A DNA stretch of 64,000 nucleotides. Source: Candidatus Parvarchaeota archaeon (GTDB lineage: Archaea > Nanobdellota > Nanobdellia > WJKC01). This document shows positions 12,331-61,442 of this stretch, piece after piece (the stretch's first letter is position 1; every line of letters starts with the position of its first letter). The DNA lies in the NCBI GenBank assembly GCA_030615175.1, contig JAUWZX010000001.1:263840-327839 (forward strand), given 5' to 3'. The translations under genes were made by a program, and so were the position numbers. The notes under the pieces were generated by a model. The model did no database searches and was not told the DNA's origin. It saw only the letters and a program-made list of their open reading frames with translations.

Positions 12331-12437
12331 TGGGACGGGTGAGATTTGAACTCACGACTTCATGGTCTTCAGCTTTGCAGGAATAATAACGCACTGTTAA
12401 TATCCTCATGCACTCTCCCATGCTGAGTTACCGTCCC
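12331..12437 (-). tRNA. tRNA-Phe (GAA) with 33-nt intron in anticodon stem (30/31; intron 12374..12406)
   Basis: GGGACGG TA ACTC AGCATGGGA GAGT G CATG[33-nt intron]G CTGAAGA CCATG AAGTC GTGAG TTCAAAT CTCAC CCGTCCC A; all helices pair after removal. Confidence 0.88.
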
Positions 12438-17190: not shown

Positions 17191-17326
17191 TGCGGGGGAC
17201 GAGATTTTCTAAACCCCAAGCGTTTTTCCGTGAACGCTTTTTCTAAAAGGGTTCTTTGAACTCGCGCAGGCACTAAGCCACTGGATTCTTAGTCCAGCCC
17301 GTTTGACCAGACTCCGGCACCCCCGC
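17191..17326 (-). tRNA. tRNA-Leu (AAG as read) with 50-nt intron in the T-loop (intron about 17205..17254)
   Basis: GCGGGGG/CCCCCGC acceptor, CTGGA-CTAAGAA-TCCAG anticodon arm, long variable arm TGGCTTAGTGCCTGC, T-stem GCGAG/CTCGT with TTCAAA[intron]T. Confidence 0.85.
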
Positions 17327-17348
17327 AATGAGTAATTAAGATATTAAC

Positions 17349-17987
17349 TTAGTATTTTAAAGTTTTTCTTACGCTGCTCATAACTATGCTTTTAAAATAG
17401 CATTTGTACCTCTTTAGTCCAATACTTTTCTTCAGGATTCTTCCCTGCTTGCAGAGTAATTTTTCTATTGCTTCATCAATTGTTTCAGCGTTTACTTCAG
17501 TTATTAATTGACCTATTTCTTCATAGTAATGAGCATCACTGCCCCCTATTAATGGGAGCTTATACTTTTCTGAGAATTTTAGTACTTTGTTATTAAAGTT
17601 CTTGAGCAGGCACCTGCCGTTTAATTCAATGAAGTCAAAATTTCTTAACTCAAAAACGTGTTTTTTAACGCCCCTCCTGAACGGGTCAAAAACGTGTGGC
17701 AGTATCACTATCCCCCCCATCGCTTTTATTAAGTTAATTGTTTTCTGAGCGTCAAGTCCTGGCTTGATTGGTTCCTTAATGAATAATCCGATTATTTCTC
17801 CCTGCTTTGCCCTGATTTCCTCTCCTATTATGACTTTAAAGTTTCTGTCATTATATTTTAATAATTTATCATGATTAACTAGTGCTATAGCATCTAATCC
17901 TTTTTTCCTAGCAATTTTCACTGCTAGTTTTGGCTTGATTGCAGCGCATGGTGATAAATTAGTATGTACGTGAAAGTCTATTTTCAT
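17349..17987 (-). CDS. PHP domain metal-dependent phosphoesterase
   Basis: MKIDFHVHTNLSPCA, LVNHDKL, GGSDAHYYEEIG. Confidence 0.88.
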   Translation of the reverse strand: MKIDFHVHTNLSPCAAIKPKLAVKIARKKGLDAIALVNHDKLLKYNDRNFKVIIGEEIRAKQGEIIGLFIKEPIKPGLDAQKTINLIKAMGGIVILPHVFDPFRRGVKKHVFELRNFDFIELNGRCLLKNFNNKVLKFSEKYKLPLIGGSDAHYYEEIGQLITEVNAETIDEAIEKLLCKQGRILKKSIGLKRYKCYFKSIVMSSVRKTLKY

Positions 17988-18149
17988 AAGAATCTTTATT
18001 AAGAATTATCTTTATAAATCTTTAGTGTTTCCTCATCTTTCTCTTTCTTTTTCGTTCTTTCATTTTCTTCTTGCGAGTACTCCATCTAGAACTTTTATAT
18101 TTTTTCCAAGTTCTTGAACTCCTCTTCATTAAATATTAAGATACAGGGA

Positions 18150-18704
18150 TTATTTTTTAAGCTTTTTCATTTTCCTTGCTGGCACGCCAACATAAACACT
18201 ATTACTGTCTAATTTCTTATTCTTTGGCACGAAAGCATGAGCCCCCACTATTGTGTTGTCGCCAATAGTGACTCCTGGACTAATAATTGCATAAGCGCCT
18301 ATGGTGCAGTTCTTGCCAATCCTTGTTCTCTTAATTTTAAGCTTATCTCCTTTAATATAATGTGCAAGGATTAAACTATTATTACCAATTATAGTGTTAT
18401 CACCTATCTCAGTTAAGCAGGGATCGTGAATTAAACCAGCTGTTATTCTAAGCCTGCCAATCTTTGCTTTAAGGGCTTTACGGTAAACCCACAACACACC
18501 GTCCTGTGGGACTCCTAGTATGGTCATTAAGTGATTAAGCATGCCAACGAACAGGTTATTACCCATCCAGGCATCAGCTTCTTTTGAGTGAAGTTTAAAC
18601 TCTCCTTCGCGAGGGAAGCCGCAAATCCTGACTATTAAGTAAGCAGTCATAACCCTTAGTATTAGGTAAGTGATTAATGCTGTAAATGCGCTAAGCGGAA
18701 GCAA
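18150..18704 (-). CDS. Left-handed beta-helix hexapeptide acyltransferase, possibly truncated by an upstream frameshift
   Basis: IGKNCTIGAYAIISPGVTIGDNTIVGAHAFVPKN hexapeptides; in-frame hydrophobic extension upstream. Confidence 0.8.
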   Translation of the reverse strand: MLPLSAFTALITYLILRVMTAYLIVRICGFPREGEFKLHSKEADAWMGNNLFVGMLNHLMTILGVPQDGVLWVYRKALKAKIGRLRITAGLIHDPCLTEIGDNTIIGNNSLILAHYIKGDKLKIKRTRIGKNCTIGAYAIISPGVTIGDNTIVGAHAFVPKNKKLDSNSVYVGVPARKMKKLKK

Positions 18705-18871
18705 TATGTAAAAGAGGATTCCACTAAATAATAATGAGTGCAGGTAAATAATTAAACCAGTTAATGGTAATGGAGCAATCCAGATGAGTAATATGTAAAT
18801 TACCCATTTATCATATGAATACCCGTTCCTGTTTATAATTAATATTCACCCTTTTTTTAATTAATATTTAA

Positions 18872-18946
18872 TGCTCCCGCCGGGATTTGAACCCGGGTCC
18901 CTGGCTCGAAAGGCCAGAATCCTTGACCGGACTAGACCACAGGAGC
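18872..18946 (-). tRNA. tRNA-Glu (TTC)
   Basis: GCTCCTG...CTGGC-CTTTCGA-GCCAG...CCGGG-TTCAAAT-CCCGG-CGGGAGC-A. Confidence 0.95.
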
Positions 18947-18984
18947 ATTACTTTTAAAAGAGATTTATTCCTTTTTTAAACCTT

Positions 18985-19620
18985 TCACTTCTTAAAAACT
19001 TCAGTAACTAAGCACAGGGACTTGATAAGGAATTCATTTTTAACTTTTAAAAAACGATTAGTTATTCCTAACTTCTTAAAACCAATATTAAACATAATAT
19101 TGTTAAAATCATTTAATGAAGGAACAAAAATGTGTGTATCATCAGGATAAAAGAATTTGTTAATAAACCTGCTTATGAAATTATTAACAGTTGGTATCTC
19201 AACTATGAATAATCCCTGCTTTTTTAATTTAGAGTAAATATTATTTAAAGCCTTAACAGGATTATTTAAATGTTCAATAACATCAATGGCTGTGATGACA
19301 TCAAATTTTTTGTTAAAAGGTATTTCTCTTTGCACATCGCCTTGTTTTAGATTTTTTAAATTAAATTTCTGCTTTGCTCTTTTAATCGCAAATTCTGATA
19401 TGTCCACACCATGAACATTGAAATCATTTCTAGCAGCATTAAGTAAATGCCCGTAAGCGCATCCAATATCTAGTAAATCCCCTGAAGTCCTGTACTCTTT
19501 TAATAATTTAATCACTGATTGCCAGTTCTTAAATAATTTCATTTTTTCCTCATAATTCCCAAAAGTTTTAAGTGGAACTCTTTTACCTTCAAAATAATCT
19601 TTATCAAATAAATTTTTCAT
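18985..19620 (-). CDS. Class I SAM-dependent methyltransferase
   Basis: DLLDIGCAYGHLL, FDVITAIDVIEHLNNP. Confidence 0.88.
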   Translation of the reverse strand: MKNLFDKDYFEGKRVPLKTFGNYEEKMKLFKNWQSVIKLLKEYRTSGDLLDIGCAYGHLLNAARNDFNVHGVDISEFAIKRAKQKFNLKNLKQGDVQREIPFNKKFDVITAIDVIEHLNNPVKALNNIYSKLKKQGLFIVEIPTVNNFISRFINKFFYPDDTHIFVPSLNDFNNIMFNIGFKKLGITNRFLKVKNEFLIKSLCLVTEVFKK

Positions 19621-20609
19621 TTGTACTCTTCAAAGATTTTTATTATCTTATTTGTTGTTCTTTCGCAGTCGTATTTTTTTGCCATTTTATATGCATTTAA
19701 GCCTAATTTTTTCCTCAGACTTTTTGAATTAATTAATTGATTTATCCTTTTAATAAAGTTATTATAATCATTGCATAGGAATCCATTTTTACCATTACTT
19801 ATTTTTTCCTTGATTGGTGGAATGTTTGTCGCAATTATTGGGCGCTTGCAAGCGCCTGCTTCAAGAATTGGCAGCCCTTCATTCTCAGCTCTTGTTGGGC
19901 ATAAAAAAATGTCTGCTCCGCAGTAAGCAGAAACAATATCATTAATATACCCTGTGAAGAAAAGATTCTTTGGTTTTTGCTTGACTAGTCTCATGATTTT
20001 AAGCCAGTTCTTCTTAAATGGGAATTCACTGCCAACCCAGATAAATTTTACTTCAGGAAATTCACGCGCTAATTTTATGAAAGTATCAATGCCTTTTCTC
20101 CAGATAAGTGTTCCAACATTAATAATTAGTGTTTCATCTTTCTTTATTCCATATCCATTCCTGAATTTATCTCTTTTCTTCTTTGAGTACTTGAATTTCT
20201 CAAGGTTAACGCCGCAGCTTACAACGTCAATTTTTTTATTAATGCCTGTCTTAATTATGCATTCCTTTGCAAACTCTGATATAGTGATTACTCTATCAGC
20301 AAGTGAATAAATTTTTTTAAGGTATTTCACTATCAGGTTATAAAACAGGTCGAAGAAAAAGCATACGTCTTTTAAGTCGCTAGGAGTTGTTGTAACAAAT
20401 ATGATTCTTGGCTTGCTTTTAATCCTTTTCAGTTTTAAGTAAGAAATGGGGTCAATAACTGGTGCATAGGCTATATCATAATTGTTTCCTTTTTTAATGA
20501 TTTCATGATCTTTATTAATTAAGCCTTGCTTTAAGTAGTCCCAAGCAGTTCTGGTCCCTGAAGTTATAAATGCGTCAGGTGAGATTTGCTTTATTATCAT
20601 ATTTTTCAA
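19617..20609 (-). CDS. GT4-family glycosyltransferase
   Basis: VVSCGVNLEKFKY, VGTLIWRKGIDTFIKL, CPTRAENEGLPILEAGACKRPIIATN. Confidence 0.9.
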   Translation of the reverse strand: MKNMIIKQISPDAFITSGTRTAWDYLKQGLINKDHEIIKKGNNYDIAYAPVIDPISYLKLKRIKSKPRIIFVTTTPSDLKDVCFFFDLFYNLIVKYLKKIYSLADRVITISEFAKECIIKTGINKKIDVVSCGVNLEKFKYSKKKRDKFRNGYGIKKDETLIINVGTLIWRKGIDTFIKLAREFPEVKFIWVGSEFPFKKNWLKIMRLVKQKPKNLFFTGYINDIVSAYCGADIFLCPTRAENEGLPILEAGACKRPIIATNIPPIKEKISNGKNGFLCNDYNNFIKRINQLINSKSLRKKLGLNAYKMAKKYDCERTTNKIIKIFEEYK

Positions 20610-21232
20610 ATCCTTTTACAAATATAGCCTGTTTCTATAATGAATTTTTTGCAATAAATTGTTTTCAATCCATTTTTTTCTAATAATCTTATTCCATTTT
20701 TAGCACTAATCGGTTTTTCGTAACCAAAAGGCCATTCTCCTTTAACCTTCTCTACTACACCTCTCCACATTTTATAATATATTGAAGGTCTTGGAGCAGT
20801 TATTAATGCAATCCCATTTTTTTTAAGGAATTCCCAATGCTTTTTAATAATCATATTCTGTCTTTCACCCTTGAAGTGCTCTATTAATCCTTGGCTGTGT
20901 ACTAAATCATACTTCTTTTTTAGTTTTAATCTTGTTATATCTTCATTTACTAACTTTACTTTCATTTTATTTTTGCTGTATAATTCTTTTGAGAATTTTA
21001 ATGACTCTCTTGAGTAGTCTACAATGGTTGCTTTCCCTCCATACTCTTTAAGCAGCCATAACGTTATTATTCCTGAACCGCATCCAAGTTCTAATATTTC
21101 CGGGTTTTTTGGCAATTTAACATTTTTTAATAAATTTTTATAATTATTATACGTCCCCTTTGATAAAAATATGAATAACTTACTATGCTTCTTAGCTCTA
21201 ATCCACCACGTGGCCCAATTTTTTTTAGCCAT
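20606..21232 (-). CDS. Class I SAM-dependent methyltransferase
   Basis: EILELGCGSGIITLWL, YDLVHSQGLIEHFKG. Confidence 0.88.
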   Translation of the reverse strand: MAKKNWATWWIRAKKHSKLFIFLSKGTYNNYKNLLKNVKLPKNPEILELGCGSGIITLWLLKEYGGKATIVDYSRESLKFSKELYSKNKMKVKLVNEDITRLKLKKKYDLVHSQGLIEHFKGERQNMIIKKHWEFLKKNGIALITAPRPSIYYKMWRGVVEKVKGEWPFGYEKPISAKNGIRLLEKNGLKTIYCKKFIIETGYICKRI

Positions 21233-21301
21233 TTTAAATAAATTTTACTATCTTTCCTTTTAAAAAACTTTTTTAAAATACTCATTAATTAAAAATATAC
21301 A

Positions 21302-22309
21302 ATGAAAGCAAATCTAACCTTTGAATACCCTTCCAAAGGCCATGGCTCTAAAACAGCGTATAATAATTTTATTAAAGGCTTGATTAAGAATAACATTGAA
21401 GTTGACACTAATTCATTAAGCAAGGATTCCGATTTAACTCATGCATTAATACCAGGACCTGTTTCCTTTATTCAAACTTTTATTAGGAAGAAGCCGTTAA
21501 TTTATGCATTACTTTTTCATCCAGAGGAGTTAAGAGTTGTTAAGGGTGGAGGGTTAATGAATTGGGTTTCTAATTATTATATCAGGAAGGCAAGGGTGAT
21601 AACTGTTTGTTCAAAATTCAGTAAAGATGAATTAGAAAAGTTTGTTAATAAACCAATAAGCGTGGTTAGTTGCGGAGTTAATACAACTGTTTTTAAGAAA
21701 AACAAACAAAAAAGAAGGCGTTTCAGGAAGAAGTATGGCATAAGTAAGGATGAATTATTAATTTATGATGTTGGCAGTTTAAATCATAAAAAAGGCATTG
21801 ACGGATTTCTTAAAATGGCAAATGTTTTCAAAGATGTTAAGTTCTTATGGGCTGGCAGGAATTTTCCTCATTTTAAAGGAAAATATGACTCAAAACGCAT
21901 TATTAAGAAGTATAGCAATGTAATACTTACTGGTTTTGTTGAAGATGTATCAATGGTTCACGCAGCAGGTGATGTACTATTATACCCTAGTTATTTTGAG
22001 TTGCAGGGCATACCTGTATTAGAGGCAATGGCAAGCGAGAACCCTGTTGTTGTTAGGGATATAAAAGTATTTGATGATTGGTTAATGCATGGTAAGAATT
22101 GCTTAAAAGCAAAGAGCACCAGTGATTTCAAGGATTCATTAAATCAATTAATTAATAATAAGCGGCTATTTAACAAGTTATCAAAGAATGGACATGAAAC
22201 AGCAGTTAAACATGATTTAAAAAGTGTTGGTAAAAAATTAAAAAGAGTTTATGAACTTGCTTTAGCAAAGGATTTTAAACCAATATATAATGATTATTCC
22301 TATGAGTAA
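21302..22309 (+). CDS. GT4-family glycosyltransferase
   Basis: VVSCGVNTTVFKKN, YPSYFELQGIPVLEAMASENPVVV. Confidence 0.9.
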   Translation: MKANLTFEYPSKGHGSKTAYNNFIKGLIKNNIEVDTNSLSKDSDLTHALIPGPVSFIQTFIRKKPLIYALLFHPEELRVVKGGGLMNWVSNYYIRKARVITVCSKFSKDELEKFVNKPISVVSCGVNTTVFKKNKQKRRRFRKKYGISKDELLIYDVGSLNHKKGIDGFLKMANVFKDVKFLWAGRNFPHFKGKYDSKRIIKKYSNVILTGFVEDVSMVHAAGDVLLYPSYFELQGIPVLEAMASENPVVVRDIKVFDDWLMHGKNCLKAKSTSDFKDSLNQLINNKRLFNKLSKNGHETAVKHDLKSVGKKLKRVYELALAKDFKPIYNDYSYE

Positions 22310-23339
22310 AATAATGAAAATAAAGCCTGGAACATTTTTCCTTAAGACTACTCCAAAGGCTTTATGGGGTTTTTTCAAGTACAAGATTGGGAGGCCCAAT
22401 CCAATTGTTGCTCAGTGGGAGATAACTTATAATTGTAATTTTAAGTGTAAGTACTGCAATGTTTGGAGAAATAAGAATAACAAGATGAAGGAATTAAGCC
22501 TTGACGAGATTAAGGATATTATTGACCAGTTGGACAGGATTGGAGTTATATGGATTACTTTTACTGGAGGCGAGCCATTACTAAAGAAAGAACTTCCTGA
22601 AATTATAAAGTACTGCAGTGAGAAAGGGATTATTACTTTAGTGAATGATAATGGTTCTTTATTAAAGCGTAAATTGCCTGAATTAAAGGATTGCCTGAAT
22701 AGTATTAGTGTTTCAATTGACTCGCCTGATGAAAGAATTAATGATGACCTTCGTGGCGTTAAGGGCGCGTTTAAGAAGGCATTTAGTGCTGCAATTAAAT
22801 CAAAAGATTATATTAAGACGGTTGTTAACATGACTGTTACTTCTAATTCCTTGAATTCTCTTGAAAAAATGGTTGCTTTATGCAGGAAGAAGGGTTTAAA
22901 AGTTGAATTTACTCCTGTATCCATTATCCCTACTGAGGGTTATGAAAAAACTTGTGCAAAAAATGATTTGGTAGACCCAGTGAAGTTTCATGACACTGTT
23001 ATTGAATTAAGGAAGAAGTATAATAACATTGTATTCTTTAAGCCTTACATGGAATTAATCAAGAGGGGGGGTGTTTCAAAGAGTAATTTTGTATGCCGGG
23101 CGCCTGAATTAATGATTAATCTTAAGCCTAATGGTGACGTTGTTTACCCCTGCGGTTACTTCCCTGTTAAGAGGTTCTCAGCAAAGAAAATGAGAATTAA
23201 GGATATAATTAAGAAGTCTAAGGGCTTTGCTGGAAAACATTTTGATTTCTGTAATAATTGTACTTTGTTTTGCTTTTTAGCTTCTTCATTAGCTGTTAAT
23301 AATGTTAAGGACCTTAAGGAATTTGCATTAATGATTTAA
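22290..23339 (+). CDS. Radical SAM protein with Cys-rich C-terminus
   Basis: EITYNCNFKCKYCNVW CxxxCxxC, FTGGEPLL, C-terminal CGYF..CNNCTLFC. Confidence 0.9.
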   Translation: MIIPMSKIMKIKPGTFFLKTTPKALWGFFKYKIGRPNPIVAQWEITYNCNFKCKYCNVWRNKNNKMKELSLDEIKDIIDQLDRIGVIWITFTGGEPLLKKELPEIIKYCSEKGIITLVNDNGSLLKRKLPELKDCLNSISVSIDSPDERINDDLRGVKGAFKKAFSAAIKSKDYIKTVVNMTVTSNSLNSLEKMVALCRKKGLKVEFTPVSIIPTEGYEKTCAKNDLVDPVKFHDTVIELRKKYNNIVFFKPYMELIKRGGVSKSNFVCRAPELMINLKPNGDVVYPCGYFPVKRFSAKKMRIKDIIKKSKGFAGKHFDFCNNCTLFCFLASSLAVNNVKDLKEFALMI

Positions 23340-23340
23340 A

Positions 23341-24351
23341 ATGATAAAGAATGTTTTGCTTAGGAAGCCTGTGCTAGTAGTGTTTGATGTTACTAAGAGA
23401 TGCAATTCTCGCTGCACTATGTGCAACATTTGGAGGAAGCAGAGCAAGTTAAGGGATGAGTTGAAACTTAGTGAAATTAATGAAATATTTAGTGACTTGA
23501 AGTCTTCAAGGGTTAGGCATGTCTTCCTTCAAGGAGGAGAGCCGTTGCTTAGAAGAGATATACTTGAAATCATTAAGTTATCAATCAGTGCTGGATTGAC
23601 TCCTTCCTTAATAACTAATGGCTTGTTGCTTAATAAGAAACTTGCAGTTAAGATAGCTGGGCTTAAATGTAATGTTAGTATAAGCCTTGATACATTAAAG
23701 AGAGGGAGGTACAAGCTAATTAGGGGAGTTGATAGATTGGATTTAGTTTTAAGGAATATTAAAGCGTGCAGTAAAATAAGGGGCAAGAACGGAGTGTGGG
23801 ATATTAATTCTACAATTAGCAGGGTTAATTATGATGAAGTCACTGACTTATTTAATTTTGCAGTTAAGTATGGTTTTAAGCATTTTGCCTGCCCGTATAA
23901 TTATTCAATATGTAATGTTAGTGCTAGGAGTTCTAAACTGGCCTTTGATAAAGAAGTTAGTAATGTTATTAAGGCTTTCAAGAAATTGTATTCATTGTCA
24001 AGGGATAATGGATTAATAATTAACTGCCTTTATTATGACGAAATTATTAAATTTTTAAGAGGCGATTACGAGAAGCCCTGCGACGCCTTGAAGTATTCAG
24101 TAATGATTAATGAGAAAGGTGAGTTAGCGCCTTGCTTGGAGTTAAAGCCATTTATTAGTCTTAAAAGCAACAAGTTCAGGGATGCAGTTAAGAATTTTGA
24201 TTATTCAATTATAAGGAAGTGTTATGAGAGCACTCCTTGTTTTTATGGCTGTACAAGGGGTTCAGGGATTGTTGTTAATAATTTTCATAAAGTTTTATTA
24301 CATGTTTTAAGACATCCTAAAAAATTTAAGGAACTTAAACATCTTTTTTAA
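23341..24351 (+). CDS. Radical SAM protein with Cys-rich C-terminus
   Basis: DVTKRCNSRCTMCNIW CxxxCxxC, LQGGEPLLR. Confidence 0.9.
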   Translation: MIKNVLLRKPVLVVFDVTKRCNSRCTMCNIWRKQSKLRDELKLSEINEIFSDLKSSRVRHVFLQGGEPLLRRDILEIIKLSISAGLTPSLITNGLLLNKKLAVKIAGLKCNVSISLDTLKRGRYKLIRGVDRLDLVLRNIKACSKIRGKNGVWDINSTISRVNYDEVTDLFNFAVKYGFKHFACPYNYSICNVSARSSKLAFDKEVSNVIKAFKKLYSLSRDNGLIINCLYYDEIIKFLRGDYEKPCDALKYSVMINEKGELAPCLELKPFISLKSNKFRDAVKNFDYSIIRKCYESTPCFYGCTRGSGIVVNNFHKVLLHVLRHPKKFKELKHLF

Positions 24352-24359
24352 TTATAGTT

Positions 24360-24992
24360 ATGGTTTTACGTAAAACAAATTGGGGTAAGTATGGTGGTTA
24401 TGAAGATTCATTCTTAATGAGATTATTCTTGAACAGAATATGGGCTGGTTATGATAAATTATTATCTGGAGTGAATTTAAAGAGTGGAATTAAGATTCTG
24501 GAGTTAGGGGCTGGTTCAGGTTATAACAGTTTAAATCTGGCAGTGAAGTTTAAAGCATCTAAAGTAGTGTTGGTTGATTTTAATGATAATGCACTGAAGT
24601 CGTCAAGAAATAGGTTTAAGGGAAGATTTAATTCACAGTTTCTTAAAAAAGATGTTTTTGATTTAAATATTAATGGAAAATTTGACATTGTTCATTCTCA
24701 GGGACTAATTGAGCATTTTCAGGGCAGGAAATTAAAAGAGCTTTTGAGGATTCATTTAAGATTTGCTAAAAAGAATGGTTTAATAATACTTATTTACCCG
24801 ACACCAACGATTTCTTACCGAATCATTAGGAAATTAGCTGAGATTGCTAAAAAATGGATTTTCGCAGACGAGGTTCCATTAAGGAAAGAGCAATTAATTA
24901 ATTTAATGAGTGAGAATAATGTTGAATTAATTAATTCAACAAGGATACATTGCGGCATAACAGAAGATGGCTTGTTATTTATGAAAAAGTAA
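24360..24992 (+). CDS. Class I SAM-dependent methyltransferase
   Basis: KILELGAGSGYNSLNL, FDIVHSQGLIEHFQG; paralog of 20606..21232. Confidence 0.88.
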   Translation: MVLRKTNWGKYGGYEDSFLMRLFLNRIWAGYDKLLSGVNLKSGIKILELGAGSGYNSLNLAVKFKASKVVLVDFNDNALKSSRNRFKGRFNSQFLKKDVFDLNINGKFDIVHSQGLIEHFQGRKLKELLRIHLRFAKKNGLIILIYPTPTISYRIIRKLAEIAKKWIFADEVPLRKEQLINLMSENNVELINSTRIHCGITEDGLLFMKK

Positions 24993-25979
24993 TTATTTTA
25001 TTATTGATTCATAAAACTTTAATAATTTTTTTCCTTGTTTTTTAATGCCAAATTTATTTTTAATTTTTAATGGTTTTTTAATATAATTATTCACGTTTGC
25101 CTTATTTATTAATAAATTAATTTTTCTTGAAAACCCATTAATTGTTTTTGAATAAAAAACATTGTTATTGAATAAACTTTTATAAACTTTTAATTCTCTG
25201 CAAATTACTGGTAATCCAGATGATGTGGCTTCTATAATTGTAAGACCAAATGTTTCGCTATAAGAAGGTGTTAAGAAAATATTTGCCGAAGAGTAAGCTT
25301 TTCTAACGTCATCAATGAATCCGTAAAATATTAAGTTTTCATACTTTTTCTTCATTAATTTCTTAATTTTAAAATAGTTTTTTGAGAAAATAGAGTATGG
25401 TTGTCCTCCTATCCAAATAAATTGTAAATCCTTGTTTTTCTCCGCAATTTTTATAAAGTCATAAATGCCTTTACGAGGTGATAATTGAGCAACATTTAAA
25501 ATAATTATTTTATTTTCTTCAATGCCTAAACTTGACCTGAACTCCTTATTTAATTTCTTGTTCTTCTTAAAATAATTTGTATTAATGGCATTATAAGATA
25601 TGTCTATGTTTTTAAAACCATTTTTAATAAGCCATTCTTTAATGAATTCTGAAACCGCTAGTAAGTAATCACTTTTTTTGTATATCCAATTATAATACTT
25701 TTTTTCTAATTTATATGAACCAATTGTGTTGCCTCTATTTGTTTCTGGTATTGAGTGTACTGTGTAGACTATTATTGCACCTTTCTTTTTGTATTTCATT
25801 GCTTTTAAGATAGACAATGGCGAAATTGAATGTACATGTACAATATCATACTCTTTACCTGCTCCGTTTAAGTCAATATCAATTTTTTGTTTTAAATAAT
25901 TGTAGTAATATTTTGGAGCTGTTGAAGACCCAAAGTATTTTAATAATTTATGGTCATCTATCAAGAAATTTACTTTCAT
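24993..25979 (-). CDS. GT4-family glycosyltransferase
   Basis: YNAINTNYFKK, LNVAQLSPRKGIYDFI, TPSYSETFGLTIIEATSSGLPVI. Confidence 0.9.
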   Translation of the reverse strand: MKVNFLIDDHKLLKYFGSSTAPKYYYNYLKQKIDIDLNGAGKEYDIVHVHSISPLSILKAMKYKKKGAIIVYTVHSIPETNRGNTIGSYKLEKKYYNWIYKKSDYLLAVSEFIKEWLIKNGFKNIDISYNAINTNYFKKNKKLNKEFRSSLGIEENKIIILNVAQLSPRKGIYDFIKIAEKNKDLQFIWIGGQPYSIFSKNYFKIKKLMKKKYENLIFYGFIDDVRKAYSSANIFLTPSYSETFGLTIIEATSSGLPVICRELKVYKSLFNNNVFYSKTINGFSRKINLLINKANVNNYIKKPLKIKNKFGIKKQGKKLLKFYESIIK

Positions 25980-26560
25980 AATACCACCAAGTAGTCAAGA
26001 CCAATTTCTTTAATCATTTTTGGCTTGAACTTCATGAAGAAGTTGTAAACTTCTTTTTTATTCTTAAACCACTTGCTCCTGTTATCGAAACTATTAAACC
26101 CGTCGTCATCTCCAAACATCTTATCTAATAGTTTATAAACCCACTTAATTTTGTTATTGGTGTAAAAATTCACGTGCGGTTCCAGGATTATTAACTTCTT
26201 TGTTCTTCCCTGAGCATTCCTTATTAATTCTTCATGCCTTGGAGTTATATGGTGTAGCAAGTCAGATATTACTATCACATCTGTTTTTGGATAATTGTTA
26301 TAATCAAAAGCGTCTTTTAATTTAACATTAATTCCTTTATTATTCTTTATGAAGTGCTCGTTAAGGTCCCATCCTTCATAACTGCATGACGTATCTAAGT
26401 ATTTATATAGCAAGCAAGTTCCGCACCCCAAGTCCAGCACTTTTTTGTTCTTGCCAATTATTCTTGCAATTTCCTTGTACCTTATTGGTAAGTATTTTCC
26501 ATGAACAAGTTTTAATAATAAGTTATACAGTCTTGGAAACCGGTACATTAAGGAAGTCAT
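25976..26560 (-). CDS. Class I SAM-dependent methyltransferase
   Basis: KVLDLGCGTCLLYKYL, VIVISDLLHHITP. Confidence 0.82.
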   Translation of the reverse strand: MTSLMYRFPRLYNLLLKLVHGKYLPIRYKEIARIIGKNKKVLDLGCGTCLLYKYLDTSCSYEGWDLNEHFIKNNKGINVKLKDAFDYNNYPKTDVIVISDLLHHITPRHEELIRNAQGRTKKLIILEPHVNFYTNNKIKWVYKLLDKMFGDDDGFNSFDNRSKWFKNKKEVYNFFMKFKPKMIKEIGLDYLVVL

Positions 26561-26579
26561 TTTTCATCTCATAATTGAA

Positions 26580-26721
26580 TGGGCCTGCCGAGATTTTCTA
26601 AACCCCAAGCGTTTTTCCGTGAACGCTTTTTCTAAAAGGGTTCTTTGAACTCGGGACCTCTGGTTATCCTAGAGTGAAGGTCATATAAGACCAGCGCTCT
26701 ACCAAACTGAGCTACAGGCCC
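26580..26721 (-). tRNA. Probable tRNA-Ile (TAT) with two introns: 18 nt after anticodon (about 26666..26683) and 50 nt in the T-loop (about 26594..26643)
   Basis: GGGCCTG TA GCTC AGTTTGGTA GAGC G CTGGT CTTATA[18]A ACCAG AGGTC CCGAG TTCAAA[50]T CTCGG CAGGCCC A. Confidence 0.8.
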
Positions 26722-61346: not shown

Positions 61347-61442
61347 TAATTAATGAATTAATTAGGATTTATTATTTAAAGTTTTCACTATTAACAAACT
61401 TTTTCTTTTAGAAAGAAAAACTTTGATGAAAAAGAAACTATT

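Follow-up and report, generated by a model that had tools for sequence, protein, structure and literature searches.

How did two different tRNA genes of one archaeon come to carry the same intron in their T-loops: by copying between the genes, or through the spread of something smaller than the intron itself? The question is raised by a 64,000-nt stretch of DNA (the window, in what follows) from Candidatus Parvarchaeota archaeon (assembly GCA_030615175.1, referred to as G000; contig JAUWZX010000001.1), in which a tRNA-Leu(AAG) and a tRNA-Ile(UAU) gene are interrupted by an identical insert. The origin of archaeal tRNA introns has long been debated and, while their movement between tRNAs is known, we know of no moving unit that has been pinned down. 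Intron transposition between tRNA genes has been reviewed for Thermoproteales (PMC4090602), and Asgard archaea possess intron-rich tRNAs (PMC11291895). Here, we argue that the window inserts are probably copies of one tRNA intron built on a widespread archaeal family of mobile hairpins, tolerated in structural RNAs through splicing by EndA, with both the mobility and the splicing inferred. Whether the family amounts to an undescribed class of mobile element across archaeal phyla, namely a gene-less hairpin of ~30-50 nt that duplicates its target and behaves as an EndA-spliced intron once inside a tRNA or other structural RNA gene, we regard as evenly balanced. The argument is drawn from sequence: the family, its structure and distribution, an empty site, complementarity of the bulge-helix-bulge (BHB) type and flanking repeats.

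The first-pass annotation of the window had reported a 65-nt block shared by the two genes, and the block is indeed identical at 17200-17264 and 26589-26653 of the plus strand; read on the minus strand, it splits the T-loop of each tRNA. As the window holds two copies of its core, AAAAGCGTTSACGGAAAA, and none of 100 dinucleotide shuffles holds any with up to two mismatches allowed, chance is ruled out, and the R1 covariance model recovers both copies (Table 1). With the T-arm broken by the insert, both uncut genes escape ARAGORN as well as an Rfam scan at the gathering score. Cutting out 50-52 nt in silico, of which 50 nt is the exact placement, lets ARAGORN call a class II Leu(AAG) and an Ile(TAT), each with its T-arm whole again, so that the proposed mending of both tRNAs holds. 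The Ile gene had been described as otherwise complete, which it is not: once the T-loop insert has been removed, ARAGORN reports an additional anticodon-loop intron, i(40,18).

Within the insert, the first 31 nt from the 5' end are a member of a hairpin family of the form NNNC-C-CTTTT..loop..AAAAG-C-GNNN-ACGGAAAA. Family members are ~29-55 nt long and consist of a variable 4-bp outer stem, a conserved C.C mismatch, a CTTTT/AAAAG stem, a variable loop and the terminal ACGGAAAA. Placed side by side, they read S-AAC-C-CTTTT, variable loop, AAAAG-C-GTT-S and then ACGGAAAA, with the two S positions paired: the outer base is C-G in 65 copies, G-C in 50, A-T in two, T-A in one and T-G in one, and is the unpaired combination A-C in two. 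Compensated outer arms are found in other copies (CGGC/GCCG and GGGC/GCCC, along with the genome-specific GCAC/GTGC, CAGC/GCTG and CCGC/GCGG), and in a formal count 99.7% of cells are paired, with 28 double-sided changes and a covariation of 0.277 versus 0.079 for shuffled sequences. No Rfam family matches the insert in gathering-score or relaxed scans, and the Rfam group I and group II intron models matched neither the window nor the insert sites that were tested, a group II match in locus L119 sitting 6.6 kb from the element. The open-access literature that we searched, with few subscription papers and no preprints, contained no description of the hairpin, and the family is apparently undescribed. 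Apparent hairpins with a G.G mismatch proved to be the complementary strand of the element. The apical loop holds a second conserved motif, CTCCAGATGGGNACG, in several genomes (G098, G099, G101 and G095; for instance L176, L190 and L199), which include Micrarchaeota.

A look across G000 for the insert in other tRNA genes, as the first-pass annotation had suggested, brought up family relatives both in further tRNAs and outside them. The R1 model finds 13 copies in the genome, whose sequence was read in the stretches around the matches: at least six tRNA genes carry the element in the T-loop, namely Leu(AAG), Leu(TAG), Leu(CAA), Ser(CGA), Ser(GCT) and Ile(TAT), two tRNA-Pro(TGG) genes carry it in the anticodon loop, and intergenic copies lie beside 5S rRNA, with a 39-bp direct repeat, and at C5:605454, with a 19-bp direct repeat. 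BLAST adds a more diverged copy upstream of Val(CAC). The two Pro(TGG) genes (L041 and L042; C5:583367 and C5:588952) lie ~5.6 kb from each other and do not differ in sequence, even in the 65-nt intron that bears the element. All identifiable Leu and Ser tRNA genes of G000 bear the element, which speaks to the possibility, raised in the first-pass annotation, that the window genes are dead and that intact copies exist elsewhere. Both genes do fail standard tRNA finders, as dead genes might. Read by anticodon, however, the tRNA matches above the Rfam cut-off include no Leu or Ser gene in this 87%-complete assembly, from which an intronless copy could be missing; the exon arms are still paired and the BHB partners conserved. 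As no intronless Leu or Ser gene was found, dead genes are unlikely, and we give this explanation hardly any credence.

G001, the sole other sampled genome of the same family, provides an empty site. Its tRNA-Ile(TAT) has the uninterrupted T-arm CCGAGTTCAAATCTCGG and keeps a related anticodon intron, while its Leu(AAG), Leu(TAG), Ser(CGA), Ser(GCT) and Pro(TGG) genes are without the insert and its Leu(CAA) has none in the T-loop. The insert is therefore a lineage-specific gain or loss. Together with the relatives in several tRNAs, this favours the earlier view of a recently spread intron, but the spreading unit is not just the 50-nt intron. The T-arm of Leu(AAG) reads GCGAG..CTCGT in G000 versus GGGGG..CCCTC in G001, and the G000 version matches that of Ile, which fits a transfer of the Ile intron, flanks included, into Leu; most likely, one window copy descends from the other by copying of the whole intron and T-arm, for example by gene conversion. 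It could be argued that such copying is the entire explanation, a tRNA intron having simply proliferated as introns do in Thermoproteales, with tRNA-to-tRNA transfer by reverse splicing and recombination or by gene conversion, and with the core being a functional part of the intron. The window introns are identical over their full length and share their T-arm flanks, the altered Leu(AAG) T-arm resembles a conversion tract, and tRNA introns are known to have transposed in Thermoproteales (PMC4090602). Against it, the core also occurs in intergenic DNA with flanking repeats, in rRNA, in RNase P RNA and in several archaeal phyla, and sits within introns whose remaining parts are unrelated. We consider ordinary proliferation possible, though not probable, and take the unit that spread to be, as its distribution suggests, the ~31-nt hairpin core rather than only a 50-nt intron with a T-arm target.

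An exact-pattern scan over 84,980 species genomes returned at least 106 loci, and 105 of the 106 listed are archaeal by record title, falling in Aenigmatarchaeota, Micrarchaeota, Diapherotrites, Nanoarchaeota, Woesearchaeota, Altiarchaeota, Methanophagales, Methanocellales, Thermoplasmata and Bathyarchaeota. An Elusimicrobia locus (L192) lacks the outer arm, and was rejected as a chance or misassigned match. Within the phylum of G000, R1 matches occur in 33 of 371 genomes, with up to 16 copies per genome and with genome-specific arms; the element is patchy across DPANN and euryarchaeal groups. Insertions into tRNAs take several positions (T-loop, anticodon loop and D-arm), and the element also lies within 23S rRNA (L116 and L374) and RNase P RNA (L119). 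This variety of sites leaves the suggestion that the flank CGAGTTCAAATCTCG served as the target unsupported. It also bears on whether the hairpin is a conserved but non-mobile small RNA or protein-binding site, selected within introns and near genes. The CTTTT/AAAAG stem and CGGAAAA tail are strongly conserved even where pairing with exons is impossible, as such a site would be; a patchy distribution, differing positions, genome-specific subfamilies, flanking duplications and the lack of an Rfam family all speak against it, and we judge it quite unlikely.

If the hairpin is indeed mobile, its tolerance in essential RNAs would depend on splicing. As we picture it, the element enters many sites, frequently with duplication of the DNA beside it; where it lands in a tRNA in the sense orientation the precursor would form a BHB motif (less certainly in rRNA and RNase P RNA), EndA would excise the element and the exons would be ligated, in the T-loop joining GAGTTCAAA to TCTCG, so that the essential RNA could still be made. 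The insert had been said to fold on itself in the manner of a BHB intron, and the predicted minimum-free-energy fold, a short helix between two 3-nt bulges, supports this; the BHB geometry of the window introns is h 4.6/5, H 3/4 and h' 4/5. Exon TTC pairs with intron GAA and AACCC with GGGTT in the T-loops, and Leu(TAG) has a complete 3-4-3 BHB. Across many genomes, and with exon-intron boundaries dictated by the tRNA, 22 anticodon-loop copies form a 3-4-3 BHB with a tRNA-specific central helix, which has on average 3.55 of 4 pairs versus 2.44 when introns are swapped between genes (maximum 3.02 in 10,000 permutations), in a comparison whose boundaries were partly picked to favour BHB pairing. 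In the subfamily with CAGCCC arms, the BHB partner changes together with the arm. Removal yields a tRNA for ~50 of 125 family copies, some low-scoring ones being doubtful, and the reconstructed tRNAs scoring at least 22 comprise 16 in the sense and none in the antisense orientation. Of the copies within tRNAs, nearly all lie in the sense direction. The sense bias and the BHB partners point to a constraint at the RNA level in tRNAs. EndA, the predicted splicing enzyme, occurs across the bearing genomes in short single-domain, fused and long forms; two Aenigmatarchaeota genomes (G093 and G097) each encode one short and one long EndA-type protein. Two further ideas were dropped. That the element acts as a guide RNA found no overall excess of inverted target copies downstream of it (13 of 120 above the 95th percentile of shuffles), clear complementarity between element and target being mostly limited to the BHB partners. 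That target duplication alone makes the BHB fits some T-loops and fails in anticodon loops, where the intron end complements the exon and not a copy of it.

Mobility is suggested by the flanks. Direct repeats ending at the 5' end of the element, of variable length (~11 to 79 nt), accompany 18 of 142 copies versus 8 of 2478 control positions, and at several loci the neighbouring gene is restored intact, a partial tRNA, 5S or coding end being followed by the element and that in turn by the whole gene. The partial tRNA copy ahead of the element in L006, L128, L130 and L160 starts 0-2 nt from the 5' end of the tRNA, which would fit a role of the RNase P cleavage site in the duplication, and the element is tandemly arrayed in L356 (G029) and L128 (G097), its copies alternating with short direct repeats (atgcttcgcaat and the first 15 nt of a tRNA). 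Duplications of variable length and an A-rich end resemble target-primed insertion. A retroelement-like process akin to target-primed reverse transcription, in which a reverse transcriptase inserts copies of the hairpin RNA, would produce direct repeats of this kind at the 5' end and an A-rich 3' end, and could account for the partial copies that begin at the tRNA 5' end (L006, L128 and L160). We nevertheless rate it unlikely, as the reverse transcriptase domain RVT_1 has no match in G000 or in 11 of the 13 other bearing genomes. A REP/PATE-type DNA hairpin moved by a Y1 (HUH) transposase would likewise be short and imperfectly paired, with a mismatch and neighbouring nucleotides that are conserved; Y1_Tnp, however, is found in just two of the 14 bearing genomes, not including G000, flanking direct repeats are unexpected for the Y1 mechanism, and the sense bias and BHB partners indicate constraint on the RNA in tRNAs, all of which makes this origin very unlikely. 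With RVT_1 and Y1 each missing from 12 of 14 genomes, neither is supported as a resident mobiliser. A host-supplied or transient enzyme is a possible mover, as is reverse splicing of the RNA followed by recombination. Classical miniature inverted-repeat transposable elements were considered and set aside, as the duplications are not of fixed length (DDE transposases were outside the search).

Several of these observations weigh against a mobile hairpin removed by EndA. Besides the choice of boundaries in the permutation comparison, the central BHB helix of the window introns has three of four pairs, which a strict homotetrameric EndA might reject, and no clear 3-4-3 BHB was found at the rRNA and RNase P RNA insertions. 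Only one EndA gene was detected in G000 (PF01974, a 190-aa open reading frame at C5:246443), a diverged second subunit being liable to be missed. The best PDB match of this protein is Nanoarchaeum 3iey_A, followed by M. jannaschii 1a79 among single-domain enzymes; the catalytic EndA subunit of Nanoarchaeum equitans is part of a heteromeric enzyme, and M. jannaschii EndA is a homotetramer. The protein may thus be of either assembly type, and the broad-specificity endonuclease that the first-pass annotation took such introns to require may or may not be at work. The conservation of the tail is overstated, as many loci were retrieved by exact pattern; variants met incidentally or through the covariance model still carry CGGAAAA or a near-identical tail. 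Most copies have no flanking repeat, and in the set found by the covariance model the enrichment is weak (3 of 68 versus 3 of 492). Finally, the absence of RVT_1 and of Y1_Tnp extends, for RVT_1, to the records titled chromosomes CP070804 and CP061209.

The larger finding would be that archaeal structural RNA genes receive introns from a conserved hairpin that looks mobile. Among known systems, this hairpin recalls the eukaryotic introner elements, short mobile elements that turn into introns on insertion, which are spliceosomal and reside in mRNA genes. The archaeal hairpin is likewise short, mobile-looking and intron-forming, and differs in that its introns are predicted to be protein-spliced BHB introns in structural RNAs. 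With REP/PATE hairpins it shares a tiny imperfect hairpin, a conserved mismatch and many dispersed copies; unlike them, it has flanking direct repeats, occurs mostly in genomes without Y1 and doubles as a predicted spliced intron. Non-canonical BHB introns at tRNA position 59/60, as in Thermoproteales and Nanoarchaeota, resemble the window introns in gene class, T-loop position, predicted BHB-type fold, near-identical copies and multiple introns per gene; as with the transposed introns of Thermoproteales, the copies sit in different tRNAs, here an identical 50 nt in Leu and Ile. What sets the present family apart is a defined covarying core with a constant tail, which turns up in different archaeal phyla, at numerous tRNA positions and, with flanking duplications, outside tRNAs. 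Published copying of introns between tRNA genes concerns other lineages, and transposition there is tied to a BHB context, whereas intergenic copies exist here. In Caldiarchaeum, a model of tRNA disruption with a stray 5' tRNA fragment invoked a 1.8-kb recombinase-encoding element (PMC3293823); the partial 5' tRNA copies upstream of intact or intron-bearing tRNAs in L006, L128, L130 and L160 are comparable, while the element here is gene-less and ~30-50 nt long. If the family does amount to a new class of mobile element, it would be the archaeal equivalent of introners and would feed introns directly into tRNA genes. Its defined sequence and structure can be traced copy by copy, through the empty site in a relative, the flanking duplications and the tRNA-specific splice partners, and cultivable archaea can be screened for the family. 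In genomes that carry it, Leu, Ser and Ile genes are overlooked by the tRNA finders that we used.

Table 1. Features of the two interrupted tRNA genes (positions are those of the window)
Feature	Position	Strand	Basis
tRNA-Leu(AAG) gene, T-loop interrupted	17191..17326	minus	Direct reading; Leu aag after in-silico excision; intronless orthologue in G001
50-nt T-loop intron copy 1, between T-loop nucleotides 59/60	17205..17254	minus	BHB geometry; minimum-free-energy fold
Hairpin core + CGGAAAA tail, copy 1	17224..17254	minus	R1 50.5 bits, E 1.4e-12; family covariation
tRNA-Ile(UAU) gene, two introns (anticodon loop + T-loop)	26580..26721	minus	tRNA-Ile tat after T-loop excision; G001 orthologue with anticodon intron only
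50-nt T-loop intron copy 2, same sequence as copy 1	26594..26643	minus	Sequence identity
Hairpin core + CGGAAAA tail, copy 2	26613..26643	minus	R1 50.5 bits
18-nt canonical (37/38) anticodon-loop intron of tRNA-Ile(UAU), outside hairpin family	26666..26683	minus	Related intron, same place, in G001

Elsewhere in the window, a weak R1 match at 61395-61433 (18.5 bits, E 0.002) may be a decayed copy of the element or due to chance, and a tRNA at 12331-12437, probably Phe(GAA), has a long anticodon-arm insert unrelated to the hairpin family. A probable tRNA-Ile(GAT) of G000 (L050, in the C5:101240 region) has separate D-arm and anticodon-loop inserts, both outside the family. The anticodons of the two interrupted genes are themselves unusual: A34 anticodons are uncommon in archaea, and both G000 and G001 possess tRNA-Leu with anticodon AAG, G001 having in addition a tRNA-Pro(AGG) (17191-17326, L285 and L269), while the Ile anticodon UAU, a rare alternative to Ile(CAU), is present in both genomes (26580-26721 and L275).

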